NCBI GenBank assembly: GCA_030836185.1
Contig: JAURQH010000050.1
Coordinates: 62,001-126,000, forward strand
Length of the DNA stretch: 64,000 nucleotides
Direction: 5' to 3'
DNA from: Planctomycetota bacterium
GTDB taxonomy: Bacteria; Planctomycetota; Planctomycetia; Planctomycetales; Planctomycetaceae
The notes beneath the pieces are model-generated. The model was not told the DNA's origin and made no database searches. It saw only the letters and a program-made list of their open reading frames with translations. Positions within the stretch are counted from its first letter, which is position 1; the number at the start of each line of letters is the position of its first letter. A program made the translations under genes and the position numbers. This document shows positions 19,428-39,335 of the stretch, one piece after another.

Positions 19428-19431
19428 AATC

Positions 19432-23256: not shown

Positions 23257-23298
23257 GGCGTATTCACAAGTCAAAGGAAAGAAGAGTATCGCAAACAT

Positions 23299-23327: not shown

Positions 23328-23348
23328 AAGTCCACAAGCGGAACAAAA

Positions 23349-23422
23349 TGGGCGTAGCAGGATTTGAACCTGCGACCTTTCGGATGTGAACCGAACGCTC
23401 TAACCAACTGAGCCATACGCCC
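23349..23422 (-). tRNA. tRNA-Val (anticodon CAC)
   Basis: 74 bases fold as a standard cloverleaf: acceptor GGGCGTA with TACGCCC, D arm GCTC/GAGC, anticodon stem TTCGG/CCGAA with loop TTCACAT (anticodon CAC), and T arm GCAGG-TTCAAAT-CCTGC. The discriminator is A and CCA is not encoded. TTGCCT with a weak TAAAAA box 17 bases further lies upstream. Confidence 0.95.
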
Positions 23423-23512
23423 TCACCAGCAAGTCCTTTTTACTCGATCTTCCTCAAACAGGCAAGTTGCCGACCTGTTCAGAATGATACTCTCGGTGCG
23501 ATTAGAAAAGCG

Positions 23513-23547
23513 AAAAAGCCCTCAGTTCGCTAAGAAGTCAGGGCTTT
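23513..23547 (-). terminator. terminator after tRNA-Thr
   Basis: Minus-strand AAAGCCCT and AGGGCTTT form an 8-bp stem with a 17-base loop, ending in a short T run. It is 16 bases after tRNA-Thr. Confidence 0.7.
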
Positions 23548-23562
23548 GAAACTCGCATCAAG

Positions 23563-23635
23563 AGCCGCCGAGAGGACTTGAACCTCCGACCCATGCTTTA
23601 CGAAAGCATTGCTCTGCCAACTGAGCTACGGCGGC
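23563..23635 (-). tRNA. tRNA-Thr (anticodon CGT)
   Basis: 73 bases with acceptor GCCGCCG/CGGCGGC, D arm GCTC/GAGC, anticodon stem ATGCT/AGCAT with loop TTCGTAA (anticodon CGT), and T arm GGAGG-TTCAAGT-CCTCT (one G-U pair). Discriminator T; CCA not encoded. A promoter-like pair lies just upstream at 23646-23673. Confidence 0.95.
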
Positions 23636-23645
23636 GTGTGCGAAA

Positions 23646-23673
23646 ATGATAACAAATCTGCCGTCACAGGCAA
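23646..23673 (-). promoter_or_regulatory. candidate promoter of tRNA-Thr
   Basis: TTGCCT (23673-23668) and TATCAT (23651-23646) are 16 bases apart, placing the transcription start a few bases before the tRNA 5' end at 23635. Confidence 0.5.
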
Positions 23674-23784
23674 CAGAGTGGATGCCTCCTGAAATCAGAC
23701 ATTCTCTTTTGTAATCGGGCTCGACGACGAGAGATTTGGGACTCGTCGGAAGAAACCAATCTCGCAGGGGCGACTCTGACTCCA

Positions 23785-24156
23785 TCATTCCGAAGAGGGC
23801 GGATTGCGGAAGCAGTATTTCGTATAGCAGACCCGAAAAGTCAGCATCACGATAAAAGATACGACAACCGATGAAACGAAAAACGGCACCATTTTCATCG
23901 GGTTTGTCTGCGGGAAGTCGTGATACGCCCAGACACCCAAGGCAGACAGAATCAGCACCACTGGATTCAACCACTCAAATCGATACCAGGGATGATAGAT
24001 CTTGCAATGAGGACAAAGAAACCAGTATTTGACGTCCGATCGAATCTTCTGCTGGCTGGCAGAATTACGGCGAGAATATTTCTTTCGTTGAGATTCCCAT
24101 TGATCGACCGTTTCGCGGCAATAGGGACACCATTTTTCTTTCGGTTGTCGGCTCAT
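23785..24156 (-). CDS. small zinc-ribbon membrane protein
   Basis: 123 residues. The N-terminal half has two CxxC knuckles, CPYC near residue 10 and CPHC near residue 48, which together could hold one zinc ion. A basic linker (SQRKKYSRRN) lies between them. The C-terminal half has two membrane helices (NPVVLILSALGVWAYHDF and MVPFFVSSVVVSFIVMLTF). The zinc ribbon is expected in the cytoplasm. It is divergent from the DUF2784 gene and not in an operon with it. Family not recognised. Confidence 0.75.
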   Translation of the reverse strand: MSRQPKEKWCPYCRETVDQWESQRKKYSRRNSASQQKIRSDVKYWFLCPHCKIYHPWYRFEWLNPVVLILSALGVWAYHDFPQTNPMKMVPFFVSSVVVSFIVMLTFRVCYTKYCFRNPPSSE

Positions 24157-24321
24157 GATCTTTAAGTTCTTTCACAAGACTCTCGCGGAGCAAGCACGTT
24201 AATCCTCTGTGATCCACGAATAGAAATCAACATTTCTTTTGATCAACCAGAATCAGGGAATAAATCGTCCGCTCACAGTCTCCTGAAGATAAGGCCTCTC
24301 TTCAAGACAAAGTGGGATCTC

Positions 24322-24702
24322 ATGCTCTACCGTATTGCCGCCGACGCACTGGTCGCCTTCCATTTCGGCTTCATCTGCTTTGTGATTCTGGGCGGATTGT
24401 TGGCCATTCGCTGGAATTGGGTGATCCTGTTGCACTTCCCCGCCGTTATTTGGGGCATGCTGATTGAATTCTGCAACCTGTATTGCCCTTTAACGCCGTG
24501 GGAGAACAGTTTGCGTGAGGCGGCAGGCCAAAGTGGGTATGAAGGTGGCTTCATCGAGCATTACCTGCTCGCGGTCATGTACCCGGAAGGATTGACGCGA
24601 AACGTACAAATTGTGTTGGGATTGATTGTTCTGACCATTAACCTGAGCGTGTATGCTTGGTTGATTATGAGACGCATCAGGACCAGTTCCGCAAAGGAGT
24701 GA
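24322..24702 (+). CDS. DUF2784 membrane protein
   Basis: 126 residues with three membrane helices: AFHFGFICFVILGGLLAI, WVILLHFPAVIWGMLIEF and VQIVLGLIVLTINLSVYAWLI. The signature of DUF2784 is clear: CNLYCPLTPWENSLREAAGQSGY followed by GGFIEHYLLAVMYPEGLTR. The function of this family is not known to me. Its stop is 2 bases before the GTG start of the next gene, so the two are probably co-translated. Confidence 0.85.
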   Translation: MLYRIAADALVAFHFGFICFVILGGLLAIRWNWVILLHFPAVIWGMLIEFCNLYCPLTPWENSLREAAGQSGYEGGFIEHYLLAVMYPEGLTRNVQIVLGLIVLTINLSVYAWLIMRRIRTSSAKE

Positions 24703-24704
24703 TT

Positions 24705-25130
24705 GTGGATTCCGAACTTATCATTGTACTAATCGCGTTCTCTATCATGTTCCTCTTCGTCTCATTCATAGCAACCCGAATGGGTTGGTCGGACGTTGCT
24801 GAACTATATCGATGCGATCAGAAGCCGGAAGGCAGGTACCATCGGTATCGATCTGGAGGATTCGGCCTAAGCAGTTACAGCAATTGTTTGACGATTGGGA
24901 TTTGCGAACAAGGCTTCTATTTATCGCTGACACTCCCTTTCATGTTCTTTCACCCTCCCCTGTTAATCCCCTGGGATCAATTCCATAGCACACGGAAGAA
25001 AAACTTTCTCCTGTTTCACCGCACGCAAACATACATTGGCATACCCACTATTGCCCAACTCAATCTACCAGCGTTCGTCTATGACGAATTGATTGAACGA
25101 GAAACGCAGATTGAAATTATTAAAGAGTAA
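24705..25130 (+). CDS. small membrane protein of unknown function
   Basis: 141 residues from a GTG at 24705, preceded by AAGGAG 5 bases upstream; that ribosome site decides the start over the in-frame TTG at 24657, which lies inside the DUF2784 gene. One membrane helix occupies residues 4-24 (LIIVLIAFSIMFLFVSFIAT). The rest is a soluble domain with GFYLSLTLPFMFFHPPLLIPWDQF, which looks like a PH-like small beta domain (inference). It forms a two-gene unit with the DUF2784 gene. Confidence 0.75.
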   Translation: MDSELIIVLIAFSIMFLFVSFIATRMGWSDVAELYRCDQKPEGRYHRYRSGGFGLSSYSNCLTIGICEQGFYLSLTLPFMFFHPPLLIPWDQFHSTRKKNFLLFHRTQTYIGIPTIAQLNLPAFVYDELIERETQIEIIKE

Positions 25131-25176
25131 GGCCGTTCGGGGGCTTCTGCTTCGCAGAGCGCCCACCTCCGTCCGC

Positions 25177-26187
25177 TCACGCCGTTTTGGGAGCGAGTTT
25201 TGTGATCCGCAGGATGCTATCGGAATGAGTTGTGGCGACTTGAATGCCGTCAGGATGCAGATCCATATCGCGAGCATGTTTCGGCAATTTGAACTGATGA
25301 ATTTCTTTGGTCGCGGTGGGCGACCAGAAATGCAGTAACCCGCCACCCGTCCCACCGGAGACCGCCATCACCGTGGTGTCATCAATAAAAAGCTGCCGCC
25401 AGATGACGCTCCGAATTTTCTCTGCGACGCACGATTGCAACAACTTTTGTGACTCCCAATCGAACATCAGATCGAGCGGCTCGTGGACCGAACCGAGAGG
25501 GTTGGAAGCTTTGTGGAGTCCACCGGCTGCCAGATATTTTCCGTCGGGTGAGACGGCAATCGCTCGGACACCGCCAAAGTCAACCTTTTGCCCGGTATTG
25601 TAAGAGTGCAACGGTTTGCAATCGAACTCGCGAGTGACGGCTTGTTTTGAGACATCCCACTGTTTGAGTGACGCCATGATGTCGCCGGAGAGCAGAACAT
25701 TCGAATCAGTGGGATGAAACCGGACGCAGTAAATATGTCGTTCATGGCCGTGAAGTTCGCCGAGCGGTGTGCCGTCCTGAATGTTCCACAATTGAATGAC
25801 TTTATCGTTACCGGCTGAGGCGAGAGTCTTTCCATCCGGGCTGACCGCCAGCGAGCGGATCCACCCGTGATGAGCGTCAATCGTACGGACCGGTTTCGGC
25901 TCTGCCGATGCCGTCTCCCACCAAATCAATCGACCGTCACCACCGGCTGTCACTGTCCAGTTTCCGTCGAGACTGTGTTCGATGGCAAACACCCAACTTT
26001 CGTGAGCGATCAACGGAGTTTTCACTTCATCGGAGAAGGCCCAGCGCTGGATCGAATTGTCCTCGGCACTGGCGAAAACATATCGCCCCAATGGATCAAT
26101 CCGACATTCAATCAGTGGACGATCATGCTTCCATTGATGAGTCACATGCGCCTGTTTGATGTCGCGACCAACGGGAGTGTCAAGCAT
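25177..26187 (-). CDS. WD40-repeat protein
   Basis: 336 residues from the ATG at 26187, one base after the stop of the DUF1501 gene; the frame is open to 26397 but that part only overlaps the DUF1501 gene. Six or seven WD-type blades are visible: CRIDPLGRYVFASAEDNSIQRW, AIEHSLDGNWTVTAGGDGRLIWW, LAVSPDGKTLASAGNDKVIQLW, VRFHPTDSNVLLSGDIMASLKQW, IAVSPDGKYLAAGGLHK and a last one closing at DLHPDGIQVATTHSDSILRI. It forms one beta propeller, likely a binding scaffold. No signal peptide is present. It is the third gene of the DUF1549/1553 - DUF1501 operon. Confidence 0.9.
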   Translation of the reverse strand: MLDTPVGRDIKQAHVTHQWKHDRPLIECRIDPLGRYVFASAEDNSIQRWAFSDEVKTPLIAHESWVFAIEHSLDGNWTVTAGGDGRLIWWETASAEPKPVRTIDAHHGWIRSLAVSPDGKTLASAGNDKVIQLWNIQDGTPLGELHGHERHIYCVRFHPTDSNVLLSGDIMASLKQWDVSKQAVTREFDCKPLHSYNTGQKVDFGGVRAIAVSPDGKYLAAGGLHKASNPLGSVHEPLDLMFDWESQKLLQSCVAEKIRSVIWRQLFIDDTTVMAVSGGTGGGLLHFWSPTATKEIHQFKLPKHARDMDLHPDGIQVATTHSDSILRITKLAPKTA

Positions 26188-26188
26188 T

Positions 26189-27478
26189 TCACACCAGAAT
26201 CTCTTTGATGGCGTGACCTTCTGGGTCGGCTCGCAGCATATCGCGACCACCGATATCAAAGCTGCCGGTTGGATCGACACCAACAGCCGACAGATAAGTG
26301 TGGAACAGATGCCGATGATCGATTTCACCATCGACGACCTTCGTGCCATTCTCGTTCGTCGCACCAAAGGACGCACCGTTTGTGACGCCACAACCACCTA
26401 AAGCGACCGACCAGGCGTTCCCCCAGTGATCGCGACCGTAACGGTCGTTGATGCGAGGCGTGCGACCAAATTCGGACAACACGACAATCAATGTCGATTC
26501 CAACATGCCGCGATCTGCGAGATCACCGACGAACGTCGCGAACGGGGAGTCGAACTCTTCCAATTGTTCGAGATGGAAGTTGAAGTTTTCGTTGTGAGTG
26601 TCATAGTTCGAGTGAGAGACCTGCACGAAGCTGATGTTGTTTTCTAACAAGCGACGAGCCAGCAAACAGTGGCGCCCGAAATCGTGCGATCCATAGCGAG
26701 CGGTGTCTTTCTCGGACTCTTTCGTAATATCGAAGATGTCCCGCTGCCTCATCAACTGCTCGGCTTGTTCGTAGCTATAGGTGAAGGCATCGGTCATGGC
26801 AGTTCGACGGCGTTCCAGAAAACCGGTATTCGCGAACTGACGGAACTGATTCCGTTGTTCGTCGCCCGCAGCGGTCACCGTTTTTGGTAATGTTGTGTTT
26901 TGCGGAGGCTTACCACCATCGAGCGAGATGCTGGCGTATTTGGGTCCGAGATAAGCTGAATCGTTACCGCGACCACCACTTCCACCCGGCGTGATGCGAA
27001 TATGTCCCGGGAGAGAAGTTTGCGGGGGATTGAGCGTTTTGGCAGCGACGGCACCAATTTCAGGATAATCTGCAGCCGGCGTTTGAGCACGACCGGTCAG
27101 CATCATGTATCGACCTTTGCCGTGATCTCCGTTCTTCGTGTTGACACTGCGGACGAGACAAAGATTGTGCATCTGTTTGGCGGTATGAGGCAAAGTGTCG
27201 GCAATGTGAATACCGGGGACGCTGGTCGCAATGGCTCGTGTGGGGCCACCGGTATCGGTTCCCGGTTTCGGATCCCAACTTTCTAACTGGCTTAATCCAC
27301 CGTGCATGTTGAAGACGACGATCCGCTTTTGATCGCGATTCAATTTCGCATAGGCTTGCGGAGCGGTGAAGGCTCCTAACCCTCCTACGACAGCAGTCGC
27401 ACCGGTCAACATGCCACCCAGAAATGATCGACGGGCAAATTGATGTTCGTTGTTTTTGCAGTTGTAGTTGATAGCCAT
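26189..27478 (-). CDS. DUF1501 protein with Tat signal
   Basis: 429 residues. Twin-arginine signal RRSFLGGMLTGATAVVGGLGAF at residues 16-37. The body matches DUF1501, an alkaline-phosphatase-superfamily-like family nearly always next to DUF1549/DUF1553 proteins in planctomycetes: VVFNMHGGLSQLESWDPKP, HIADTLPHTAKQMHNLCLVRS, MMLTGRAQTPA, GHIRITPGGSGG, GRHCLLARRLLENNISFVQV, LIVVLSEFGRTPRIN, GRDHWGNAWSVALGGCGV and HLFHTYLSAVGVDP. It should be exported folded. AGGGA, 6 bases before the ATG, is the ribosome site and lies inside a small hairpin (27485-27498). Confidence 0.93.
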   Translation of the reverse strand: MAINYNCKNNEHQFARRSFLGGMLTGATAVVGGLGAFTAPQAYAKLNRDQKRIVVFNMHGGLSQLESWDPKPGTDTGGPTRAIATSVPGIHIADTLPHTAKQMHNLCLVRSVNTKNGDHGKGRYMMLTGRAQTPAADYPEIGAVAAKTLNPPQTSLPGHIRITPGGSGGRGNDSAYLGPKYASISLDGGKPPQNTTLPKTVTAAGDEQRNQFRQFANTGFLERRRTAMTDAFTYSYEQAEQLMRQRDIFDITKESEKDTARYGSHDFGRHCLLARRLLENNISFVQVSHSNYDTHNENFNFHLEQLEEFDSPFATFVGDLADRGMLESTLIVVLSEFGRTPRINDRYGRDHWGNAWSVALGGCGVTNGASFGATNENGTKVVDGEIDHRHLFHTYLSAVGVDPTGSFDIGGRDMLRADPEGHAIKEILV

Positions 27479-27484
27479 GTTTCA

Positions 27485-27498
27485 TCCCTTTCGAGGGA
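27485..27498 (-). promoter_or_regulatory. hairpin holding the DUF1501 ribosome binding site
   Basis: Minus-strand TCCCT-CGAA-AGGGA forms a 5-bp hairpin. Its right arm AGGGA is the best ribosome site for the ATG at 27478. It lies between the DUF1549/1553 stop and the DUF1501 start and may lower the translation of the second gene. Confidence 0.4.
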
Positions 27499-27505
27499 AG
27501 GTTTT

Positions 27506-30376
27506 TTAATGATTGAATCGAAATTCAGCCGAGTTCAGCAATGCCCAAGCAATCTCAACGATGCAGGCTTGCTTCTCTTCGGGGCGTGATTTGATGTAAT
27601 CGACGACCGCTTTGGTTTCTGCGACTGTCGGCTGTCGTGTTAAGTAGGTCAGATAAAGATCTTGGATACCAGCAACGAGGTCTTCGTTTTGTAGCATGCG
27701 ATGTGTAACATTGCCGGTCGCCGGGCCGACCCAGCCGATGATCGATCCGCCATTTGCGGCGAACAACGCCTGATCGACGGTAGCAAAATAATCGTATTGG
27801 TTTTGACCATCGCCGGCTCCGTAAACAGCGACAAACGACCCAACACTCCCCTTCAACTTCTCGTACATCAATTGCTCAACGGCCACTTCACGGGCTGCGA
27901 GTTTGGCCGGGTCTTTTTTGTCCTCTTCCGAAAGAGGTGTCTTTTTCTCAATCTCCGCGCGGGCAATTCCCATGTAACGCTGGCGGACTCCCGTCACCTC
28001 TAACACCGACCAGGCAAATTGTTCCGGCATCAACGGCTTTAATGGAGCCACCGCAAACTGCGACGCCCAATCTTCTGTTAACTTCGCCTGCATCGCGTTG
28101 GAGGCGTCACGGGTTGAGTTGGCTTCTGCTTCAGCCTCTTTAACGGCTTGAGTCATCTGAGTTCTGAGATCGGTCCGTTTTTTCATTTCGGCTTCAACGG
28201 TCGCGAACTCTTGCTTCATCGCTTCGTACTTGGGTTGAAGCTCCTTGAGGGAGACCTGCATCTCGGCGGACATCTTCTCTGCTGCCGTCAGTTGCAACTG
28301 ATAGTTCTCCGCTTTCACTTCGTAAAAGCTGACCAATTGAGTCAGTTCATCGTCCGCTGGCATTGAGGCGACGGCATCCGCCATATTTTGACGGGCCGCT
28401 TTCAGTGTGGCGACCGCAGTGGGCAACTTATCCATATCGGCTTCTGCAGAGGCCAGTTTCTGCGTGGTTTGCTGATATTGATTGGAAACGGTCTGCCATG
28501 CTTTCTGTTTAGTTTGAAACTCGACCGTGTATTGTTCGACAGCCTGCATCGCTTCTCGTTGTTGAGCAATGGCTTGCTGATGTTTTTCGGAAGCGGCTAT
28601 CGCCGTCGTCTCTGCTGGACCATAAGAAACAAAATGTTTTATCGATTCCAGTTGAGCCGTCAATCGATTGAGTTCATTCCAATGGTCGAGTGAATTATGT
28701 CGGGCTTTGGCGGCTTCTGCCTGCTTCGCGAGTGCGATCTGTTCCAATGGTGCAATCCGAGTCCGTATTTCGTCGATCACTTTCCACGATGCGTGAAGTT
28801 CCTCGCGAGGTTTCACCAGCGCGGCTTCTTTGTCGGTGACTGCTTTTCGTAAGGGCGTAGCTTTCTTTTCGACGGCAGCGATTTTTGCTTTGATGGGAGC
28901 GAGTGCTTTGGTCAACTCGTCATCGGTTTTGAGCAATGCCAATGCACTATCAGCCGGCTTGGTAATCGTTTCGTATTTGGCGATCAGATCGAGTTGCGGT
29001 TGCAACTTGGCTTTCGCAGCGGTGAGTGCTTTTTCTGCCGCTTCATAAGGTTTATACAGCTCGGCAGTCTTCTTGCGTGCGGCACGCAATTCGGTTTTGA
29101 CCGGTTCGAGGGCTTGCTTTGCTTCGTACCAGGCACTCATCGTCTCTTCGTACGATGCCGCTGCTTCTTCGGTCCGTGTTTTTAAGGCGACCAACTCTGC
29201 TTCAATCGTTGGCAGTTTTTCCGCAGACTGTTGCGACTTGGCAACTAATTCCGCCGGCAGATCAATGGAGCGTTGATAAGTCTTCGACAAAGCAATCTCA
29301 CGCACAAATGCTTTCATGTCAAACTTCAGACGGGCCATTTCTTCACCCAACAACTTCATCAACGCCGGATGCGAGGGAGGATTGGCAGTGTGATGCAAGT
29401 CAATCGGCTCGACCAGTCCGCGTCCCATCATGTGAGCCCATAATCGATTCGCAATGTTCTCGTTGAAGGCTCTGTTGTCGCCAATGCTCACCAGTTCGGC
29501 CAATTTTTGGCGACGGGAATACTTCAGCACGGGGCGAACGGTTTTATCCGGTTTGATCTTGTATTCATCTCCCGAATAAAACTTCGGTTCAGCGATGGGA
29601 GGTCCACCCGGAAGTTTGGGAGCAGTCTCGTCTTCGGAATCGGGAATGAAGACCGATTCGAATTTCGCTTCACTTCCCGCTTTCTCCGCGTAGTACGTTT
29701 TTTTGTCGGGAGCTTTGAATTCATACCCGCCAGCGAGAAATGAATAGAGGCCGTGGTAGTCCGACTGTTTGTAATCATCGATGATGGGATGATCGTGACA
29801 CTGCGCACACTGAAAATCGCGACCGAAGAAAATTCGAGCGACATCGCGAGTCAGCAAATTAGGTTCGCTGCCTCTGTCCAGATAAAATCGGACGGGGGCT
29901 CGGTTCTTCAAATCGACACCGTCTGCCCCGAGAATCTCTCGCGCCAATTCGTTCCACGGTTTATTTTGTTGGACAGACTTATGCAGCCACGGCAGCCATT
30001 CTTCCTGTTTGACATGCTGGTTACGCCGACGCTCCATCAGCATGATGTCCAACGAGGTTGTGAAGTGACGGACATACTCGTTGGAACTGAGTAATTGATC
30101 GACGAGTTTCACACGTTTGTCGGGACTCCCATCTGCGAGAAAGACATTGAGTTCTTCAATGGTCGGAGGCATGCCAATCAGATCGATGGAGACTCGACGG
30201 ATAAACTCGTGATCGTTGATGATCTCGGCTTGCGGTGCTTTTGTGGATTGATCGATCAACTGATCAATCCGAACATGCAACGGTTCTTCAGCGGAGACTG
30301 TCACGATAGAAGACAGAACGAGAACTGTCATCAATCCATGCAAAAATGCAGTTGTGATCGAAGTTGGGCGGGACAT
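27506..30376 (-). CDS. DUF1549/DUF1553 cytochrome-like protein with long coiled-coil insert
   Basis: 956 residues from the ATG at 30376, with GAGG 7 bases upstream, chosen because the export signal (FLHGLMTVLVLSSIVTVSA) follows at once; the in-frame start at 30445 would put 23 residues before it. DUF1549 occupies about residues 30-240 (RIDQLIDQSTKAPQ, FIRRVSIDLIGMPPT, LLSSNEYVRHFT) with one heme c site CAQCH in DFQCAQCHDHPIIDDYKQSDY. DUF1553 starts near 295 (RRQKLAELVSIGDNRAF, NRLWAHMMGRGLVEP) and resumes near 765 (PLMPEQFAWSVLEVTG). Between, about residues 380-760, lies a heptad-rich insert with several long helices (AYKPYEAAEKALTAAKAKL-like). First gene of a three-gene operon. Confidence 0.92.
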   Translation of the reverse strand: MSRPTSITTAFLHGLMTVLVLSSIVTVSAEEPLHVRIDQLIDQSTKAPQAEIINDHEFIRRVSIDLIGMPPTIEELNVFLADGSPDKRVKLVDQLLSSNEYVRHFTTSLDIMLMERRRNQHVKQEEWLPWLHKSVQQNKPWNELAREILGADGVDLKNRAPVRFYLDRGSEPNLLTRDVARIFFGRDFQCAQCHDHPIIDDYKQSDYHGLYSFLAGGYEFKAPDKKTYYAEKAGSEAKFESVFIPDSEDETAPKLPGGPPIAEPKFYSGDEYKIKPDKTVRPVLKYSRRQKLAELVSIGDNRAFNENIANRLWAHMMGRGLVEPIDLHHTANPPSHPALMKLLGEEMARLKFDMKAFVREIALSKTYQRSIDLPAELVAKSQQSAEKLPTIEAELVALKTRTEEAAASYEETMSAWYEAKQALEPVKTELRAARKKTAELYKPYEAAEKALTAAKAKLQPQLDLIAKYETITKPADSALALLKTDDELTKALAPIKAKIAAVEKKATPLRKAVTDKEAALVKPREELHASWKVIDEIRTRIAPLEQIALAKQAEAAKARHNSLDHWNELNRLTAQLESIKHFVSYGPAETTAIAASEKHQQAIAQQREAMQAVEQYTVEFQTKQKAWQTVSNQYQQTTQKLASAEADMDKLPTAVATLKAARQNMADAVASMPADDELTQLVSFYEVKAENYQLQLTAAEKMSAEMQVSLKELQPKYEAMKQEFATVEAEMKKRTDLRTQMTQAVKEAEAEANSTRDASNAMQAKLTEDWASQFAVAPLKPLMPEQFAWSVLEVTGVRQRYMGIARAEIEKKTPLSEEDKKDPAKLAAREVAVEQLMYEKLKGSVGSFVAVYGAGDGQNQYDYFATVDQALFAANGGSIIGWVGPATGNVTHRMLQNEDLVAGIQDLYLTYLTRQPTVAETKAVVDYIKSRPEEKQACIVEIAWALLNSAEFRFNH

Positions 30377-30681
30377 TTCTAAGCCTCGGGGTCGGGGGAG
30401 GCGGATACTAAGGTGGGCCAGCATCATGCCGGTAAATTCAGTCATGCATCGAGCGGGCGGGATAACGCATTCCTAGGTGTTTATATAATACTGAGTCGGT
30501 CTTTCGCTGGTCAAGATGAACCTGGATCATCTGTGAAATTGGACCAAAATCGTAATTCGTCCCGATTACGGCGGATTTTCCAGCAAATAGTGAGGATTGT
30601 GGCGATTTTACGAGATACAGAAGAACGCTGAAGAGAGCCAAAAATGTCATCCCAACGCGTCATACCAGAGCTAATTTAGTC
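30377..30681. other. intergenic region with the operon promoter
   Basis: About 300 bases. It carries the candidate promoter at 30485-30514 and otherwise nothing I can support. Confidence 0.5.
30485..30514 (-). promoter_or_regulatory. candidate promoter of the DUF1549/1553 - DUF1501 - WD40 operon
   Basis: TTGACC (30514-30509) and TATTAT (30490-30485) lie 18 bases apart, giving a start near 30478, about 100 bases before the ATG at 30376. Confidence 0.55.
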
Positions 30682-31194
30682 CTATTTTGCAGGAGTGACT
30701 TTGGACTCTTTCAAATTGAGGAGAAAACGTGAGCCGGTTGGTGTTCCCTCGATAGAGATTCTCCACTCCCCTTTGATCGCGTCTTTGTCGCGAAGTCCTT
30801 GGAACTCACAAGGGACGACAAATTGATTTCCCCAGGAGAGAATCTCATCCGCGGTGAAACTGACTTCTTCCCCCAAATGGTTGCCTTGTAAATTCAACTT
30901 GGTGTTGTTGAGAGACGGGATCTCCCTCGTTCCTTGAACACTGTGATCACTCATCAGGTTCCAGTTGAGGGAGACACGCTCACGGTTCCGACTGTTCTTG
31001 GTGGAATAAATATAGCCGCTGCAAGATTGCTCTTCTGTCACCACAACGATTTCAGTCACTCCGTTCCCAGCAGAACCTGTTGTCGATTCGAGTGGAGTGC
31101 CTTGATCGACCTCCATTGTTCCTGCGGATGAGGTAACCGGATCCTGTCCCGGGTTTTGATCATTCGACTCTGAAACCGGATTGGAAACACCCTC
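30682..31194 (-). pseudogene. 5'-truncated gene, probable lipoprotein remnant
   Basis: The frame is open from a stop at 31197-31195 to the TAA at 30682, and protein-like sequence (NPVSESNDQNPGQDPVTSSAG) continues upstream of the first ATG at 31116, without any start codon or signal peptide in that part. This is what a lipoprotein looks like just after its lipidated Cys, with the head missing. From the ATG, 144 residues remain: VTEEQSCSGYIYSTKNSR, LNWNLMSDHSVQG, FVVPCEFQGLRDKDAIKGEW, ending FLLNLKESKVTPAK, likely a beta-rich domain. The missing head ends where the sulfatase remnant on the other strand also lacks its head (about 31175-31190). It could still be translated from 31116, but would stay cytoplasmic. 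Confidence 0.6.
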
Positions 31195-31603
31195 TCAGCT
31201 GCAAGGCATATCATTGCGCCCACTTCTCGACCATCCCGAACGCCTCGGCAAGAAGAAGTTTGCGTATAGCGTCGTCACGCGCGGAGAGGAACTTGGTCAC
31301 GCCTTACGGAATCAACGCTGGAGATACGCGAAATGGCCGAATGGAGAAGAGCTCTATAATCTGACCAACGATCCGGGCGAACGTCGTAATCTTGCCGAGA
31401 AGCCGCATGTGGTCGAGCGCTTACAAGACTTCCGTAAGTTGCTCGCCGACACCCCTCTTCATCAAGATACTTCTGATCATCGAGGGGAAGTGGCGTTTGT
31501 AAAATTTCTACGAACGATTCCAGTTCGTTCAGAAGATGATCGAGAGCAGGCTGCTCTTCAGGTGTCGCCTCTCCCTTTTCCTCATATTCCGCGAGGCGCA
31601 TGA
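31178..31603 (+). pseudogene. C-terminal remnant of a sulfatase
   Basis: The frame encodes GLETPSQLQGISLRPLLDHP, FAYSVVTRGEELGHALRN, QRWRYAKWPNGEELYNLTND, PGERRNLAEKPHVVERLQDF and RKLLAD: the last 100 residues of an arylsulfatase-family protein, where the chain is normally preceded by about 350 residues with the catalytic Cys site. None of that is present, and a stop lies at 31157-31159. After about 31470 the frame becomes antisense to the ORF that starts at 31664, so the true sulfatase end was probably also lost or lies near there. It begins at the same point where the remnant at 30682-31194 loses its head. Confidence 0.75.
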
Positions 31604-31664
31604 GAAGCGCATTGGCCTCATGGTCATTTTGTGCAGTCAATGGATGTGATTTTTGGTGAGTCAT
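31275..31664 (-). pseudogene. 3'-truncated helical protein downstream of the sigma factor remnant
   Basis: The start is well formed: ATG at 31664, AAGG 8 bases upstream and a leader hairpin before it. The first 50 residues (MTHQKSHPLTAQNDHEANAL, LMRLAEYEEKGEATPEEQP, ALDHLLNELESFVE) look like a real helical protein. From about residue 65 on, the frame is the reverse strand of the sulfatase remnant (ARPHAASRQDYDVRPDRWS), so the original 3' part is missing. As the gene just after an ECF sigma factor on the same strand it may once have encoded its partner (anti-sigma factor or kinase), which is speculation. A short protein might still be made. Confidence 0.55.
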
Positions 31665-31677
31665 AATTAAGCCTTTT

Positions 31678-31710
31678 GTGAGAGCGATCGCCGAAGCAAA
31701 ACGCCCTCAC
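31678..31710 (-). promoter_or_regulatory. 5' leader hairpin before the ORF at 31664
   Basis: Minus-strand GTGAGGGCG (31710-31702) pairs with CGCTCTCAC (31686-31678) over 9 bp with one G-U pair; the loop contains GCTTCGGC, itself a small UUCG hairpin. AAAAGG and the ATG follow. The layout resembles 2528-2545. Confidence 0.55.
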
Positions 31711-31841
31711 TCCCAGAGAATCAAAATGTGTTAGCCAAAAACGAAAGAAACGGATCGCAACAGCGATCTTTGAGGCACCGCGAGGAGAGAAAGGTGCCTA
31801 TTGAGAAACGACTTACGACAATTATCAAATCAAAGAAAAAG

Positions 31842-32446
31842 TTAGAGACTTCCGACTTCTTCTTTCAAACGCTGAAGCACTCGAAACTTCGCATGACGGA
31901 CGGCGACAGATGACATTCCCAGCTCCTGGGCGACTTCTTTCGATGTACAGTTCTCAATCGATGTTCGCCAGAAGGCAGTCCAGGTGGAGGTCGAAAAATC
32001 ATCCCGAATCACTTCCAATGCTCGCGAGACAACAAGTGCTTTGCTTGCTGGCGCTTGCCAAGGTTTGAAGGGTCAGTGTCATCACGACTTTTGCTCGCCT
32101 CTTGATCGGCGGGCAACTCAATCAGTTCGTCGTATGCCTGACTTCCACCGGGGGCCTGTAACATAACCGGATTGTTTCCCGTCATTTTATGAATCTGATT
32201 CCGGGTGACCGTCCATAGCCAACCGCGAAAACTTTCTGGTTGGAACGTTTGGATGTACTGAAAAACGCGTGTAAAGACATCTTGAACCAGATCTCCGGCA
32301 TCTTGCTGGCTGAGTCCTTGTCGTCGTCCCCATGTGTACACGAGAGGTGTGTAAATGTGGGTAAAGCGTTCCCAAGCTTGAGGGTCGTTCTGCTTGATCC
32401 GATTGATCAAACTTGTTGAGGTTGACCATGTACCGCTAGTTGCCAT
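31842..32446 (-). pseudogene. ECF RNA polymerase sigma factor, frameshifted
   Basis: From the ATG at 32446 region 2 is intact: LINRIKQNDPQAWERFTHIY, VYTWGRRQGLSQQDAGDLVQDVF, FRGWLWTVTRNQIHKMTG. This frame ends in a TGA at 32009-32011 after QAKHLLSREHWK. Region 4 continues intact in the neighbouring frame: ALVVSRALEVIRDDFSTSTW, TAFWRTSIENCTSKEVAQEL, GMSSVAVRHAKFRVLQRLKE, ending at TAA 31842. A shift of one base back near 32030-32060 joins them, so one base has probably been lost. No slippery heptamer lies there, which argues against programmed frameshifting; a sequencing error remains possible. The family is the planctomycete type whose region 4 has a TW-AFWRT motif. As read, it cannot bind -35 boxes. 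Confidence 0.85.
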
Positions 32447-32566
32447 GGCTGTCTGTGCCACCGAAAGAACAGAATCCGAATATTTGCAAATACGAATTCA
32501 AATCGTACCCCTTCCAGCGATTTCGTCCAAGAGAGAATCTCAGCGGGCTCGAATCCTCTTATTCAT

Positions 32567-34234
32567 TCAACGCTGATCGCGAAGAAACTGATCACCATCC
32601 AAAATTTCAATCTGAGAGCCGTTATAGAGGTCAAAGACCTGCAAGCCGGCTTCAAGCTCTCGCTTGGATTGGAGGTCACCAAACAAATAGATTGTCTTCA
32701 CATTCTTCGGAAACGCTTCATAATCATCTTGAGAAACAGACATTTTCAAGAGCGTTTCGACAGTCGCCTTCGAACCCCGATACCCTTCAATGTCTTCGAC
32801 GTTTGTGAGTTCGTCGATATCGACCTCAACTCCCAAATAGCCCACACGAACTTGATCCGTAAACCGACGCGGTCCCTCTGCATTCAAAACTCTCAACAAT
32901 TTCAGAAGCTCGGTCTTAAACTCGGCCTCCCTGGAAACCGCATTATGGAAAAACATCGTCGTATGAGTGTTTGGAGTTTGAAACTTGATAGCAGGGTCCG
33001 CCATTGCTTCAATCAATTGCTCATAGTCCTTTTGCAGATGGATCATTTTTTGTCGTTGCCCTGATTCGCTACGAACCAAAAGAATGAACGTCATTCCTTG
33101 CGGAGACCCCAGATGACCATCTGGCGTGATCGCCTTAAACTGGCCGCGATGATCGGCTGCAATCAACTGCAACAAATCGTTTTGTGGATAGCCAATACAG
33201 GTTGTGTGGACGACGGTCTTCGCTTGATTGTAAATCTCGCAAACCTCTCGAGATTGTGCCGGGATAACGCCATCGGTCAGGAAGTAGAGAACATCAGGAC
33301 GCAGATCAAGTGCGAACGCCAAAGACTCCATAGGCTCAGTTCCACCGATTGCACCAATTGTGTCCAACCATTGCTTTGTTTTTTGTCGATTGTTGCGCGT
33401 TGCTGATCGCAATCCCACAAAATTACCTTGCTCAACCATCGGACGATTTCCATCGTTGTAAAGCACAACGCAGTACGACTGATCTTCTTTCATGACATGG
33501 ATCGCTGATAGAAGTTCTTCTCGGGCTTTATCCCAACGTGTCATCACTCGCAAAGTTCCCGGGTTTCGTGGATCGGGTTCACGAAACTCTGCCTGCATAC
33601 TCCCCGAGATATCAACCACAAAGACGAACGAGTTTCCTTGAGAGCGTGTTCCGAAAAATCCAACCCCGCCATCTCCCACTCCTTGGGACGTTCCGCCTTG
33701 GCCAAAATTCATCGTGGTGGAATTTTGATAGGCGGGATTATCGAAGGAGAGATCCTGCAGCTCACGGCTGACTTGAAATTCAATCGGTAACATCGGTTCA
33801 AGACCGCCAGCACTTCCCAGCCCGCCAAGCCCTTGGGTCATGGAAGATTGGATGGAATCGTGCCAGTTGAATTTTTGCACCTGATAGACAATCAGAGCGG
33901 TTGCCAACAGGAAGATTCCATGAACAAAAAGAGAAACCCCATAACCGGCCATCCAACGTCTCAAACGACTCGGTGGTTTATCTGACACAAAGTCTGAATC
34001 AGAAATTGAAAGCTGAAACAAATGCTCGGAGACAGACTCCTCTTCTGAATCCGCCTCGGCGAAGACCAAGCTAGAAGAGGTCGAGCTCATCGCATCTTGA
34101 GATGCCACTTCATTCGGACGCCAACAACGGGGACAGCGGGCCGGAATGGAGTTCTGCTCAACACAAAAACCACAGTATCCGCACTCAAAAGAGGTTTTGA
34201 GCTGTTCCGATGGGGTGCCGGACACTGACGACAT
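32567..34234 (-). CDS. von Willebrand A domain membrane protein with N-terminal zinc ribbon
   Basis: 555 residues from the ATG at 34234 (GGAAA 7 bases upstream); the frame is open to 34441 but that part has no domain. Residues 18-37 form a zinc ribbon C-x2-C...C-x2-C (CGYCGFC, CPRC). A membrane helix follows near 98-120 (VSLFVHGIFLLATALIVYQV). A Gly-rich linker leads to a VWA domain from about residue 195, with intact metal site DISGSM, FVFVVDISGSM at its start, then SYCVVLYNDGN, IGGTEPMESLAFALDLRPDV and LYFLTDGVIP. The C-terminal 170 residues (VRVGYLGVEVDIDELTNVED) are not recognised. The VWA part should face the periplasm and bind a partner protein. Neighbour of the broken sigma factor gene. 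Confidence 0.88.
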   Translation of the reverse strand: MSSVSGTPSEQLKTSFECGYCGFCVEQNSIPARCPRCWRPNEVASQDAMSSTSSSLVFAEADSEEESVSEHLFQLSISDSDFVSDKPPSRLRRWMAGYGVSLFVHGIFLLATALIVYQVQKFNWHDSIQSSMTQGLGGLGSAGGLEPMLPIEFQVSRELQDLSFDNPAYQNSTTMNFGQGGTSQGVGDGGVGFFGTRSQGNSFVFVVDISGSMQAEFREPDPRNPGTLRVMTRWDKAREELLSAIHVMKEDQSYCVVLYNDGNRPMVEQGNFVGLRSATRNNRQKTKQWLDTIGAIGGTEPMESLAFALDLRPDVLYFLTDGVIPAQSREVCEIYNQAKTVVHTTCIGYPQNDLLQLIAADHRGQFKAITPDGHLGSPQGMTFILLVRSESGQRQKMIHLQKDYEQLIEAMADPAIKFQTPNTHTTMFFHNAVSREAEFKTELLKLLRVLNAEGPRRFTDQVRVGYLGVEVDIDELTNVEDIEGYRGSKATVETLLKMSVSQDDYEAFPKNVKTIYLFGDLQSKRELEAGLQVFDLYNGSQIEILDGDQFLRDQR

Positions 34235-34457
34235 AACGAACTTTCCAGAAGTGGAACGGCCCGCTCCGCTTCCATTATACGCATCCGCGATAAGAGGAAA
34301 AGCCAATAATTCTGATGAACCGCCACTCCCAATATACAAGGGTGTACGTGTGAGAGCGAGACTTTTCAACTCAAGAAACCACGATTTGAATGACTTTCGA
34401 GAGTCAGGGATGGTTTCATTCTTCAAATCATCAAGAGCCAAAAGAGTCGGTCAGAAC

Positions 34458-35543
34458 TCAATTTCGAGAGCGATTATCACCCAAACCGACTTTGGAAGAG
34501 ACTGCTTCGGGGAATCGAGGGGGTACTGAAGATTCCATTATGTCTCGCACGATTGGAAGGAGCATCTCTGTCATTTCTTGATGACCAATCTCGTTCAAAT
34601 GCAAGCGGTCGCAAGCATAGTATGGTGGAGGCTCGGGCAGTTGTTGAAAATCAGATTTCAAATCCGTGAAATGGATTTGTGGATAGCGAGAAACAATTTC
34701 GGCAACTTGTTCATGGCTATGCTGAACTTTCTTGGGATACTTTTCAAACGAATTCGCAAAGATCGGTAACACAACCACACAAACAGCAAATCGATGTTCC
34801 TGTTGAAGCTCAGCAAGTTGTCGCATCCCACGCTCAACCGGACACTCTCCCTCAAGCTGCGTGCGCCGGTACTCCATTTCAAAATGGCTAGGTTGAGCAA
34901 ACAATCGGTGGTGAACAAAAAAAGCAAGACGGGAGTTTTGAACAACATGGTCAGAGATCGTTCGAGAACTGAAGAGTTGATCCCGTGACTCCTTCTCCTT
35001 AATTCTAAAAAAAGAACCACCCATACGAAAATCGTTGAGGCATACGGTAAGTAAAACGAGATCCGGTTGGTACTTCAATCCTTTTGTTCGAAGAGTTTCG
35101 ACTTCCTGAACCGTCTGATACCCCGTAACGCCCATGTTGAAAATCTCATAGTGGACAGGGTTGTTTGAGTTGTTATTGAGCCTCTTTTCCAACAGGTAAG
35201 TAAATCGATCATCATTGTTTTTTACCCCATTACCTGCTGTCGTGGAGTCACCAATGCAAATGATTCGACGAGTCCCCGAAGCCTTAACTAATCCGTGTTC
35301 GCGATCTCTCAATCCCTCAAAATTGAAATAACTATTGTCGAGATTTCCAGTCCCCTTACTTTTCGTTTTTGGACGATAGTCGTAAACAAGAATCGGGTTT
35401 TCAGAAGCCCTGATATCGTCGACTCTAATAGGTGCCAACGGATGTGGCGGAGGATCGAGAACTCTAATGCCGACTTCAGCGACAAAGAGCGAAAACATTA
35501 CGCTGGCGAAAGCCAAACCAATTTTTTTGTAGCACTTTTTCAT
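34458..35543 (-). CDS. membrane-anchored SGNH/GDSL hydrolase
   Basis: 361 residues from the ATG at 35543; the frame is open upstream to 35714, but that part overlaps the end of the glycosyltransferase gene and has no export signal. One N-terminal membrane helix (GLAFASVMFSLFVAEVGIRV). SGNH blocks: IICIGDSTTAGNGV near residue 97 with the nucleophile Ser, FNMGVTGYQTVQEVE with the Gly, LLTVCLNDFRMG with the Asn and CDRLHLNEIGHQEM with the Asp/His pair. Such enzymes remove or add acetyl groups on polysaccharides. It lies 77 bases downstream of a GT-C glycosyltransferase on the same strand, which suggests a role in glycan assembly. Confidence 0.85.
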   Translation of the reverse strand: MKKCYKKIGLAFASVMFSLFVAEVGIRVLDPPPHPLAPIRVDDIRASENPILVYDYRPKTKSKGTGNLDNSYFNFEGLRDREHGLVKASGTRRIICIGDSTTAGNGVKNNDDRFTYLLEKRLNNNSNNPVHYEIFNMGVTGYQTVQEVETLRTKGLKYQPDLVLLTVCLNDFRMGGSFFRIKEKESRDQLFSSRTISDHVVQNSRLAFFVHHRLFAQPSHFEMEYRRTQLEGECPVERGMRQLAELQQEHRFAVCVVVLPIFANSFEKYPKKVQHSHEQVAEIVSRYPQIHFTDLKSDFQQLPEPPPYYACDRLHLNEIGHQEMTEMLLPIVRDIMESSVPPRFPEAVSSKVGLGDNRSRN

Positions 35544-35619
35544 TGTATCAACGAGAGATGGAAACGTAAATTTTTCTGACCAATCCAGAGTGAATTTGTA
35601 GTGCCAAACCAGAATTAGG

Positions 35620-37302
35620 TCAATGGGTTTGACTTTTGAGCGGGGAAGCCATCTCAATCTGAGAGTAGAACGACGGCGTATTAGGCGATAACACCGCTTC
35701 ATCCATTTCTTCAAACGTCAGCAACCAAAATTGTCGGTCGGAATAATAATCCAGGACTCTTTGATTCTGTTGAGGGCTCATGCACCGGGACCAGACAATC
35801 CTCGATGAATCAATGTCTGCGTGATTATAAACCCATTCTTTGTGTACATTGTGATCCTCGGCATAATGAACGAACACAACATGCTGTCCTGGAATGTTCT
35901 GGAGTTGAGTGACCAGTTGGGAGCGTTCGCTAAAGTCTTGCCCCTTCTGCCATGCTGGCATGAATTGAAAGAGCACAAACATACAACCGATCCCCCAGAC
36001 CATCATTCTGCCGACAACTTTTCTCCCCGGATTCCAAACTCGTAAATTGTCCAATCCGATCACCTGAAAGAGGGTCATCGGTGCTGTCAAAGGTGCCGCG
36101 TAGTGGGGAAACAAATAGATAATTTGAGTCACTGCCAACCCCACCGCGAGACAACAGCCCAGACAGACAATCAACCAGCGATCTCGGTAGTGTCGTACGC
36201 ACAACAGTAACGGCACAAGCGACGCAGGCCCAACAAAGAATCGCAAAAAGTTAAGGAGTTTTGTGATTAGCTCTCTGTTCCAACCGAAATTGACTGAAAA
36301 CGCCTGATAATTGGTACGCTCCCAAGAGTGATAATACTTCTGAAATGCATCGTGACGATACTCGGGAATCGGCTCGCCATCACTCTGAAAGAAAAAGGTG
36401 GGGTTTGCCGCGTACTGATCGTTATGAAGCTGATAAGGCATCTTCCAAGGATCACCAGTCACCTGGTAATTAAAATAGACCTGCCAACTGAGAGCCATCA
36501 TCGGGATCACAATACACGCCCCAGATAATCTCAAACACTGCTTGAGCGAAAACGCATTCGAAGAAACGAGAGCAATCATCAACACACTTGTCGCCACTAG
36601 AAAAAAGACAAAGCCTTCATAGGACCGGGAAAGAGCCAGAATTGAAAGCCCCAGACCAAAGATCATTCCATCTTGCCAGCGTTGTTGGGAAATCAATCGA
36701 CGTAAAGCACCCAACAAGAGAGCACCTCCCATTGCCGCAACGGCTCCTCCCCAATAGGAGTTCCCCCAATATCCAGGCGTCAAACGCAGGGTCATGATCA
36801 TCGCACCGAATAACGCCCATCGTACGGGAACCCAGGCTTGTAACATCCAACAAACCGCGGCACTCGCCAATGCCATGCTGATCCAGACACCGAACACAGG
36901 ATGTCCACCAACCCGAATTCCCAATGCAAGAAACAGAGATTGCCCGGGAGGATACTTGGACATGTACGAGGGTGTCTGCAGTAGATGAAAACTCTCGAAA
37001 TGTTCCCAGAGCGGATGTGTCTCATTCGTCAATCGACCATCGGCAAACGTCTCTGCAGCGAGAAGGTAACAGAACTCATCGTGGACCGAAGGTTCGGGAT
37101 AGTCCCCCCAAATCAAGGTTGGTAAGTGCAAGCTGAGACTCACCACACCGACTGCCACGATCGACCAATTTCGATGTGCAGCAAATTGATGAAACTTGCG
37201 CGACATTGATCGAACGAAAATATTCCGATTGATGCGGTCTGGCAGGAACCAGACGACTGCAAACAGAATCAGAATGCCGACGAGCTCGAAGCCGATAATC
37301 AT
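35620..37302 (-). CDS. GT-C fold membrane glycosyltransferase (family 39-like)
   Basis: 560 residues with about ten membrane helices, starting with LVGILILFAVVWFLPD. The first outer loop carries PEPSVHDEFCYLLAAETFAD, where Asp-Glu is in the place of the catalytic acid of GT-C enzymes (ArnT, PMT and planctomycete homologues), followed by LQTPSYMSKYPPGQSLFLAL, a metal/donor-site segment common in this group. Later helices include FGAMIMTLRLTPGYWGNSYW and LLLGALRRLI. The soluble C-terminal part (VVFVHYAEDHNVHKEWVYNH, RIVWSRCMSPQQN) faces the periplasm. It should transfer a sugar from a polyprenyl phosphate donor; the acceptor is unknown. It precedes the SGNH hydrolase gene. Confidence 0.85.
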   Translation of the reverse strand: MIIGFELVGILILFAVVWFLPDRINRNIFVRSMSRKFHQFAAHRNWSIVAVGVVSLSLHLPTLIWGDYPEPSVHDEFCYLLAAETFADGRLTNETHPLWEHFESFHLLQTPSYMSKYPPGQSLFLALGIRVGGHPVFGVWISMALASAAVCWMLQAWVPVRWALFGAMIMTLRLTPGYWGNSYWGGAVAAMGGALLLGALRRLISQQRWQDGMIFGLGLSILALSRSYEGFVFFLVATSVLMIALVSSNAFSLKQCLRLSGACIVIPMMALSWQVYFNYQVTGDPWKMPYQLHNDQYAANPTFFFQSDGEPIPEYRHDAFQKYYHSWERTNYQAFSVNFGWNRELITKLLNFLRFFVGPASLVPLLLCVRHYRDRWLIVCLGCCLAVGLAVTQIIYLFPHYAAPLTAPMTLFQVIGLDNLRVWNPGRKVVGRMMVWGIGCMFVLFQFMPAWQKGQDFSERSQLVTQLQNIPGQHVVFVHYAEDHNVHKEWVYNHADIDSSRIVWSRCMSPQQNQRVLDYYSDRQFWLLTFEEMDEAVLSPNTPSFYSQIEMASPLKSQTH

Positions 37303-37501
37303 AAAGCGAGAATCTTAGCACTGAGAGAATATTGAGACACATGAACACATCGGAAAGATAGAACATTCCGTGCAAATTGGTCAACGCAATTCCAACTCTG
37401 CAAACCTGTGAAAAGGAAGAAATACGCAAACGGATATTGTGTGACATACGGTGCGAGAGAGGCAATTGTCTGCCTTCACAGATTCACCAACGCAAGAAAA
37501 A

Positions 37502-37575
37502 TACACCCGGAGGGATTCGAACCCCCAACCCTCGGTTCCGAAGACCGATGCGCTATCCAGTTGCGCCACGGGTGC
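37502..37575 (-). tRNA. tRNA-Arg (anticodon TCG)
   Basis: 74 bases: acceptor GCACCCG with CGGGTGT (first pair G-U), D arm GCGC/GCGC, anticodon stem TCGGT/ACCGA with loop CTTCGGA (anticodon TCG), T arm TGGGGG-TTCGAAT-CCCTC region. Discriminator A; CCA not encoded. Reads CGA and probably other CGN codons. Confidence 0.93.
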
Positions 37576-37730
37576 ATGAGGTGAAAATTAAGTCAATTTC
37601 ACCAGAAAGCAGTTTAACACGTTCTGTAGGTCAGGGAAACCGAAAACGGCTCTCCATTTGACCAGTGATTGAGACACCAAAGAAATTGCTTAGGTTCGAG
37701 AGATTTTACAGAGTCTACCGGCACTCGCTC

Positions 37731-38201
37731 TCAGACAGGCACATATTGATCGCTCAGACGCGATACCGCGTCTTCAGGATTCATATTGAACAGTGCCCGG
37801 CCACCTGTCCCCCAAGCGCCTTCCTTGTAATGGAAGACCGCCGCACATTCTCGGAGCAGACCAACCGCCTCCACTTCTTCCATATCTCCTCCTTCAACCG
37901 CCTCGAAACTGACATTCACGGCTGCGAATGCCGTCAGCAAACCGGTTTGTGCATCCCGGGCGAAAGTGACTGTTTCCTGCCAATCACATTCCACCCAAAC
38001 TAAATCTCGAGGTTTCCCAAGCTGTCTGGCCATGTCAAAGAACTTTGCTTCCAGAGTTTCGCGTTGATGCCGAAATTGTTCCCGAGCCTGTTGTTCTTCC
38101 CGTTGATAAGCCCACCGACGAAGTGGTTGATTTAGGCACGCAGCAAGGAAAAAGAGACCAACGAGAATGCCGATAATCCAATAAGCGATGATGAGGAACA
38201 T
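37731..38201 (-). CDS. small membrane-anchored protein of unknown function
   Basis: 156 residues from the ATG at 38201; the open frame upstream to 38264 lacks signal character. A membrane helix occupies residues 1-24 (MFLIIAYWIIGILVGLFFLA), followed by a charged helix (REEQQAREQFRHQRETLEAK) and a compact domain: KPRDLVWVECDWQETVTFAR, TAFAAVNVSFEAVEGGD, GGRALFNMNPEDAVSRLSDQ. The domain faces the cytoplasm if the helix is N-out. Family not recognised. It is divergent from the endonuclease IV gene. Confidence 0.75.
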   Translation of the reverse strand: MFLIIAYWIIGILVGLFFLAACLNQPLRRWAYQREEQQAREQFRHQRETLEAKFFDMARQLGKPRDLVWVECDWQETVTFARDAQTGLLTAFAAVNVSFEAVEGGDMEEVEAVGLLRECAAVFHYKEGAWGTGGRALFNMNPEDAVSRLSDQYVPV

Positions 38202-38425
38202 GGTGGTCTTAAAACTGGACGCGGAAAATGTTGATCTCACTGGGGTGTGAGCCAACGGTGACACCTCAATAAGACTGGAAGTACAATTCTTCTGATATCG
38301 TAGGCAGCAGAGAGGAATTCCGCGACTCTGCGTGTGAGAATCCCTGAAATTTTCCAGCTCACTGAGAATGACTTGTGAGCAGGAAACCTAACGTCAATAC
38401 TGTAAGACAGCCCGACGGGCGAGTT

Positions 38426-38439
38426 TGATTGATCAATCA
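38426..38439. promoter_or_regulatory. 14-bp perfect palindrome upstream of nfo
   Basis: TGATTGATCAATCA is its own reverse complement, 24 bases before the nfo ATG, in the divergent intergenic region. It could be an operator of a dimeric repressor; no regulator gene is next to it. Confidence 0.35.
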
Positions 38440-38462
38440 TGCGGAAATAAGGATTCGTCGCA

Positions 38463-39335
38463 ATGCCATTACTGGGAGCCCACATGTCGATTGCTGGCGG
38501 CTATTACAAAGCCGTCGAAGCTGCTGCCAGGTTCGATATGGATTGCGTTCAGATTTTCACCAAGAATAACAATCAATGGCGAGCCAAACCCATTTCCGAT
38601 GAGGACGTGAGGTTGTTTCGGGAAGCGATGGACGAAACTGGTGTCCAGAAACCGTGTGCTCATGCCAGCTATTTGATCAATCTGGCAAGTCCCAAGGATG
38701 AACTGTGGGAAAAATCGATTGACTCATTTGTCATCGAGCTGGAACGGGCTGAACAGTTTGGATTGCTGGGGGTTGTGCTCCATCCGGGAAGCTATGTCAG
38801 TTCATCACCGGAAGAAGGTCTCGCAAGAATTGTTGCCGCCTTGGACGAAATCCATCGTCGAGCACCGGGACTTTCAACCCAAACATGGTTGGAAACAACT
38901 GCGGGGCAAGGGACAAATCTTGGCTATCAGTTTGAGGAATTACAGTACCTGCTGGAAAATGTGAAGGAGGCAGAACGATTGGGCGTGTGCCTCGATACCT
39001 GCCACATTTTTGCGGCCGGCTATGCGATGAACACCAAAGCCGAATATGAGGCGACGTTCAAAAAACTGGATTCGACCATCGGCCTAGATCATTTGAAAGG
39101 CTTTCACCTCAATGATAGCAAAAAGGAATTTGGAAGCCGGGTCGACCGACACGAACACATCGGAGAAGGTTTTCTGGGTATTGAACCGTTTCAACATCTA
39201 TTGAATGACAAGCGATTCGCCAATCACCCGATGTATCTGGAAACTCCGAAGGAACAGGATGATCGTGAGATGGATCCTGTGAACCTTAAAACACTTCGCG
39301 CGCTGTTGAAATCTGCTCCCGTTCGCAAAAAATAG
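38463..39335 (+). CDS. nfo: endonuclease IV (apurinic/apyrimidinic site repair)
   Basis: 290 residues, close to E. coli Nfo (285). It cuts DNA 5' of abasic sites. The three-zinc site can be followed: GAHMSIAGG (His), LHPGSY (His), LETTAGQGTNLG (Glu), GVCLDTCHIFAAGYAM (Asp, His), KGFHLNDSKKEFGSRVDRHEHIGEG (His, Asp, His) and LETP near the end (Glu). AAGGA 10 bases before the ATG serves as ribosome site. It stands alone between divergent and co-directional genes. A perfect palindrome lies just upstream. Confidence 0.95.
   Translation: MPLLGAHMSIAGGYYKAVEAAARFDMDCVQIFTKNNNQWRAKPISDEDVRLFREAMDETGVQKPCAHASYLINLASPKDELWEKSIDSFVIELERAEQFGLLGVVLHPGSYVSSSPEEGLARIVAALDEIHRRAPGLSTQTWLETTAGQGTNLGYQFEELQYLLENVKEAERLGVCLDTCHIFAAGYAMNTKAEYEATFKKLDSTIGLDHLKGFHLNDSKKEFGSRVDRHEHIGEGFLGIEPFQHLLNDKRFANHPMYLETPKEQDDREMDPVNLKTLRALLKSAPVRKK

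Follow-up and report, generated by a model that had tools for sequence, protein, structure and literature searches.

Broken genes at a probable composite rearrangement breakpoint near a tRNA-Arg gene in a planctomycete draft genome

The DNA considered here, a window of 64,000 nucleotides (G000:C26:62001-126000) from a draft genome of 5.16 Mb in 107 contigs, contains a point at which a leftward gene, hereafter gene A, and a rightward sulfatase fragment meet, both devoid of their 5' parts, with the head of a kinase gene and a frameshifted sigma factor gene following to the right. The genome (G000) was compared with two congeners (G001 and G002; three genomes of the genus in all), of which G002, also a draft, is a metagenome-assembled genome, as G000 may be too. 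Family-level searches took in 170 genomes, and the search with the sulfatase piece covered 119 relatives. In a literature search, nothing among the titles and the starts of abstracts seemed to concern this locus.

What remains of gene A (30682-31184, minus strand) is a tail, corresponding to residues 220-388 of a 388-residue protein (169 of the 388 residues), and the protein is encoded intact in the congener G002 (L010:6953-8119, taken from the first ATG of an open frame of 409 residues). In G000, the frame with its end at 30682 extends back without interruption to 31194, where a stop codon (31197-31195) bounds it, and its 5' end possesses no start codon, as was correctly noted in the preliminary description of this DNA. 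At the DNA level, homology between G000 and G002 covers 3681 bp at 86.8% identity, from window position 27506 to 31184 (equivalent to L010:7611), and it stops there. A protein-level search takes the alignment farther, as far as 31221, but it crosses two stop codons on the way, and the DNA comparison gives no such extension. The head of gene A is not matched at the DNA level in either G000 or G001, nor at the protein level in G000, and no part of the gene is matched in G001. With matches in at least two of the 170 family genomes, G000 and G002 (the number of candidate places scored per genome being limited), gene A looks restricted to the genus, and a scan of genome contigs for homologues outside it, made with six short peptide patterns, gave a single record, JAQWSQ010000138.1, which is the G002 contig itself (100% identity). 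A candidate homologue in G116 (29% over 87 residues, E = 6e-4) was dropped, as it sits in an unrelated-looking frame of 285 residues. The protein is assigned to no Pfam family (E 0.1). Gene A had been characterized as lipoprotein-like and deprived of its signal peptide, a characterization not borne out by the intact G002 protein, which, when read by eye, features several hydrophobic stretches, some of them in the part lost from G000, and no N-terminal lipobox.

The surviving tail maintains an open frame throughout the 165 codons compared between G000 and G002 (30682-31179), suggesting that the cut may be recent, and an ATG at 31116 could provide a start for a product of 144 residues. Its dN/dS of 0.283 exceeds the values for four other genes in the same pair of genomes (0.089 for the DUF1549-like, 0.036 for the DUF1501-like and 0.078 for the WD40-like gene, and 0.043 for polA), indicative of weaker constraint. 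Its dS, at 0.300, is about half of that in the same four genes (0.555-0.631), a difference for which the rearrangement proposed below gives no explanation; a later exchange of gene A between the G000 and G002 lineages is one possibility. The neighbor of gene A (27506-30445, minus strand), which we take to be a DUF1549/PSCyt-like gene, is part of the DNA collinear with G002 up to the point of truncation. The operon beside gene A (25177-30445) presumably consists of PSCyt/DUF1549-like, DUF1501-like and WD40-like genes, and its upstream neighbor differs in each of the three congeners.

On the other side of this point, a fragment of about 270 bp (31178-31453, plus strand) encodes the C-terminal part of a sulfatase, cut at both ends and devoid of a stop codon of its own. 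The translation of 31181-31453 matches positions 54-148 of the 154 positions of SGSH_C (PF16347; E = 3.4e-5, below the Pfam cut-off), and the only profiles recognized, SGSH_C and Sulfatase_C, both score below their cut-offs. The closest relative is a sulfatase encoded by G011 (73% identity over 88 residues), in which a Sulfatase domain occupies residues 111-475 of a 581-residue frame. While the fragment thus resembles the sulfatases that combine PF00884 with SGSH_C in its C-terminal sequence, it differs from them in lacking the catalytic domain, being a scrap of about 90 codons from which roughly 365 N-terminal residues are missing, close to the 350 or so originally estimated. The 93-residue piece was matched in 99 of the 119 relatives (its own genome included); outside of G000 the best score belongs to G011 (74%), the next best match is at 51%, and matches in G001, in G002 and elsewhere in G000 are no more than 41% identical among the matches listed. 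All 19 of the relatives given as loci (L034-L052) reside inside open frames of 481-1029 residues, this set leaving aside six further listed rows with frames of 109-375 residues, and gene A is intact in its one homologue; homologues starting at the same residue as either remnant, which would have spoken against the proposed deletion, were not seen among these.

The missing head of the sulfatase gene was not recovered in G000: the full-length G011 relative gave at least 70 matches there (150 of 172 candidates scored), none of them a head of matching similarity. A 58% match on contig C67 of G000 was rejected, as it represents the tail of a neighboring sulfatase plus a linker, with no such sulfatase behind it, though a degenerate start of the lost sulfatase at that place would go unrecognized. 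Among the loci collected, one from G011 (C143; L053:3836-6922) carries two sulfatase genes in a single open frame of 1029 residues, followed by a third sulfatase that overlaps this frame in another one.

At the first junction (31175-31184), DNA homologous to gene A ends at 31184, and the sulfatase reading fits from 31175-31178, the overlap being in part an estimate. Two divergent genes without their 5' parts at one point had been described here, and this description stands. The sulfatase reading at the junction is the TGL of TGLETPSQLQG, and in the 19 relatives, compared by eye, the position of the window's G-L is occupied by G-L in nine, by G in 14 and by T-G-L in two, including G011, with two of the 19 having another spacing before LQG; residues upstream of TGL in the relatives show no fit to the window. 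Between 7 and 10 bp thus fit both gene A and the sulfatase, the sulfatase side being judged from relatives rather than from the actual parent, and this overlap hints at a possible joining by microhomology. When the stretch 31040-31700 was used as a DNA query, six of the 170 family genomes gave matches (no more than three candidate places scored per genome): G000 over the whole length, G002 over the gene A part only, and four others over 23-63 bp. With the same scoring, a match spanning both this junction and the one described next is present in one of the 170 genomes, G000 itself.

What had been overlooked is a second truncation, at the right end of the sulfatase piece, with a third broken gene starting there. 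This second junction (about 31440-31453), at which the C-terminus of the sulfatase is joined to the N-terminus of a kinase gene, is a short range in which the ends of the two homologies overlap: the sulfatase fit ends at about 31453, while the G011 protein continues for about 15 more residues to its stop, and the head of a Ser/Thr kinase gene of the type linked to ECF sigma factors occupies 31440-31664 (minus strand). The first 70-75 residues read from 31664 match the N-termini of kinase genes on two contigs of G002 (C161 and C220) and on another contig of G000 (C43), up to a common C-x-x-A motif. On C161 of G002, the equivalent segment leads into a Pkinase domain, the gene following a sigma factor gene. 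The window has no such kinase domain, and its frame continues into the sulfatase fragment, read on the reverse strand. A further match to the kinase head, in G062, contains a stop, looks like chance and was dropped. The ECF sigma factor gene (31838-32461, minus strand) is frameshifted, regions 2 and 4 being encoded out of frame with each other, a defect that could be real or a sequencing error. Pairs of genes for ECF sigma factors and Ser/Thr kinases occur in planctomycetes, and the G002 contig C161 presents one; the locus in G000 resembles these pairs in gene order and in the N-terminal segment of the kinase gene, but it differs in the frameshift and in the loss of the kinase domain. The two junctions lie within about 270 bp of each other, and thus one cut-and-join is not enough to account for the locus.

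To the right of the first junction, a variable stretch of about 6.3 kb (31185-37500) extends to a gene for tRNA-Arg (TCG; 37501-37576, minus strand), whose 3' end faces it. Besides the broken genes, it contains genes for VWA-like, GDSL-like and membrane proteins, and it has no collinear match in G002: the part 34400-37495 has no match at all there, and 31150-34500 finds only 187 bp of the sigma factor gene, at another place. A 66% match to the VWA gene is located farther along the contig of G001 (C28) that carries the tRNA-Arg counterpart. Collinearity with both congeners begins at 37502, at the tRNA gene, directly beside which G001 carries a gene for a tyrosine recombinase of the Phage_integrase family, and near which G002 carries a fragment of an rve transposase, at a contig end. 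As tRNA genes are hotspots for genomic islands and sites of variability in general, the arrangement is reminiscent of tRNA-linked islands, with variable DNA starting at the 3' side of tRNA-Arg in G000 and a tyrosine recombinase located there in G001. It is unlike them in that no integrase is found in the 6.3 kb of G000 among the products scanned from 31275-37302 (short frames left out), and in that a blastn-short search of the window and the collected loci for a second, att-like copy of the tRNA end recovered nothing beyond the tRNA and the counterparts it has in the two congeners. Repeats searched for in 30300-38000 amount to short imperfect families that look like chance.

The order of the flanking blocks differs between the congeners. 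In G002, a single contig (C68) carries, in window-equivalent coordinates, 54094 to 78324, with polA and a repeat array as its last elements, then gene A, then 31184 to 17164; gene A comes after polA and the array, on their strand, and no sulfatase intervenes. In G000, the order along contig C26 is 17164 to 31184, the variable stretch, 37501 to 53400, 54094 to 78324, and then other genes, so that the gene A block and the polA block, each on one contig in either genome, are inverted relative to each other, and polA is located about 44 kb from the gene A tail, at the distal end of a block whose order is inverted versus G002. The collinear blocks are mostly 85-90% identical, one of 804 bp being at 71%. 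The G002 counterpart of the segment 37502 to 53352 is located on two further contigs (C219 and C19), and its link to C68 is thus presumptive. In G001, one contig (C28) carries 37502 to 48722 followed by 30533 to 25193, in the same relative orientation as in G002 but with another join point, suggesting that the operon has been relocated repeatedly and leaving little ground for assigning a polarity to the change in order.

Right of polA, G000 possesses a dispersed repeat, followed by other genes. The repeat family, in which a conserved core of about 265 bp is followed by variable modules, is represented at L029:13987-14627 and at L010:5670-6590, and in part at 53408-53508 of the window; Rfam recognized only a tRNA in L010 and L029, and the repeat has no Rfam match. 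A query with the repeat, which also contained polA and gene A, gave 67, 35 and 97 matches in G000, G001 and G002, respectively, with 40 candidate places scored per genome. The core was re-found in all 20 of the G000 stretches chosen from the match list (some at contig starts were left out), and in eight of the 20 it is clipped by a contig end within 400 bp. As collinearity beside polA ends at this repeat, a later loss of DNA there is plausible. Next to the partial copy in the window, and close to where the collinear block from 54094 onward has its edge, positions 53510-53580 resemble by eye part of what is presumably an IS3-type transposase.

Taken at face value, these observations are probably best understood as a composite rearrangement breakpoint near tRNA-Arg rather than as one small deletion. 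In the ancestor, gene A would have been intact and located behind polA, as in G002; an intact 388-residue gene is unlikely to arise from a fragment, and the cut in gene A has thus most likely occurred on the G000 side. In the G000 lineage, the DNA would have been broken inside gene A, and the side with its tail and the operon (17164-31184) would have been joined, inverted versus G002, into the middle of a sulfatase gene in a decaying variable region beside tRNA-Arg, perhaps guided by the 7-10 bases that fit both genes. Either earlier or in the same event, the sulfatase gene would have lost its 3' end along with most of a convergent kinase gene, resulting in the second junction, and both heads would have been lost afterward, possibly at the opposite end of the inverted block, beside polA. 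Breakpoints of chromosomal inversions and translocations can cut genes, and the likeness here is that collinearity stops inside a gene and that the flanking blocks are inverted. The locus departs from such breakpoints in that a third broken gene takes part in the join and that a reciprocal junction containing both heads is not found, neither in G000:C26:126001-165800 compared with G002, nor genome-wide with the head of gene A. A clean inversion predicts the head of gene A beside that of the sulfatase to the right of polA, where G000 has the repeat and other genes, and thus we do not claim a clean inversion with two cuts. The most economical account would be an inversion-type rearrangement that cut gene A and left its tail attached to a stretch of sulfatase, kinase and sigma factor genes near tRNA-Arg that was decaying already.

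The preliminary description favored one deletion that removed both heads and a shared promoter from between two divergent neighbors. The heads are indeed missing, the two pieces facing apart from one point, and neither head was recovered in G000 with the scoring given above for the sulfatase. However, comparison with relatives, by which this proposal was to be judged, speaks against its remaining parts, the single deletion, the divergent neighbors and the promoter between them: neither congener has gene A and a sulfatase gene as divergent neighbors, gene A being preceded at its 5' side in G002 by polA, which in G000 lies at the far end of the reordered block, and unmatched in G001; the sulfatase piece has, among the matches listed, only distant ones (41% identity at most) in both; and it is cut on its right side too. 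We thus consider a single deletion unlikely. Doubtful as well, and slightly more so, is an origin of the sulfatase scrap as filler, copied or captured from elsewhere and inserted between gene A and the kinase gene when a break close to a tRNA-linked hotspot was repaired, the sulfatase never having been native there. The scrap is short, both of its ends are cut, the genes on either side of it share a strand, and the sulfatase that precedes its relative in G011 has its best G000 counterpart on another contig, C67, with no such sulfatase behind it now, all of which would suit a capture. On the other hand, a donor copy of high identity is not found in G000 (150 of 172 candidates scored), and the second junction is equally well explained by the loss of DNA between a sulfatase and a kinase gene that were convergent. 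Should capture be the true explanation, the joining of fragments at microhomologies would present one way in which the sulfatase-rich planctomycete genomes shuffle pieces of genes.

The junctions are known from an assembly rather than from reads, and a chimeric contig is conceivable in a draft of 107 contigs in which the dispersed repeat occurs at or near several contig ends, and in which the frameshift in the sigma factor gene could be one more error. We nevertheless regard misassembly as very improbable: the junction is not at a copy of the repeat, several signs of decay are present within 1.3 kb, and the long collinear stretches to the left and to the right correspond to one and the same congener at mostly 85-90% identity, making a mix of organisms unlikely.

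The locus, real in the assembly and unusual in its details, is thus most likely the scar of a composite rearrangement that contains fragments of pseudogenes and is ordinary in kind, a part of common genome decay. In G000, annotation as broken is appropriate for gene A and for the sulfatase and kinase pieces, and probably for the sigma factor gene as well. While the broader interest is small, the locus presents a case in which what looks like a simple deletion is, on comparison with congeners, more probably the mark of a larger reordering close to a tRNA gene. As a separate observation, the two kinase genes of G002 matched by the kinase head look broken as well: in the one on C161 (L056:2107-2952) the match ends at position 138 of the 263 positions of Pkinase, 11 residues before the stop, and in the one on C220 (L009) the frame breaks soon after HRD.
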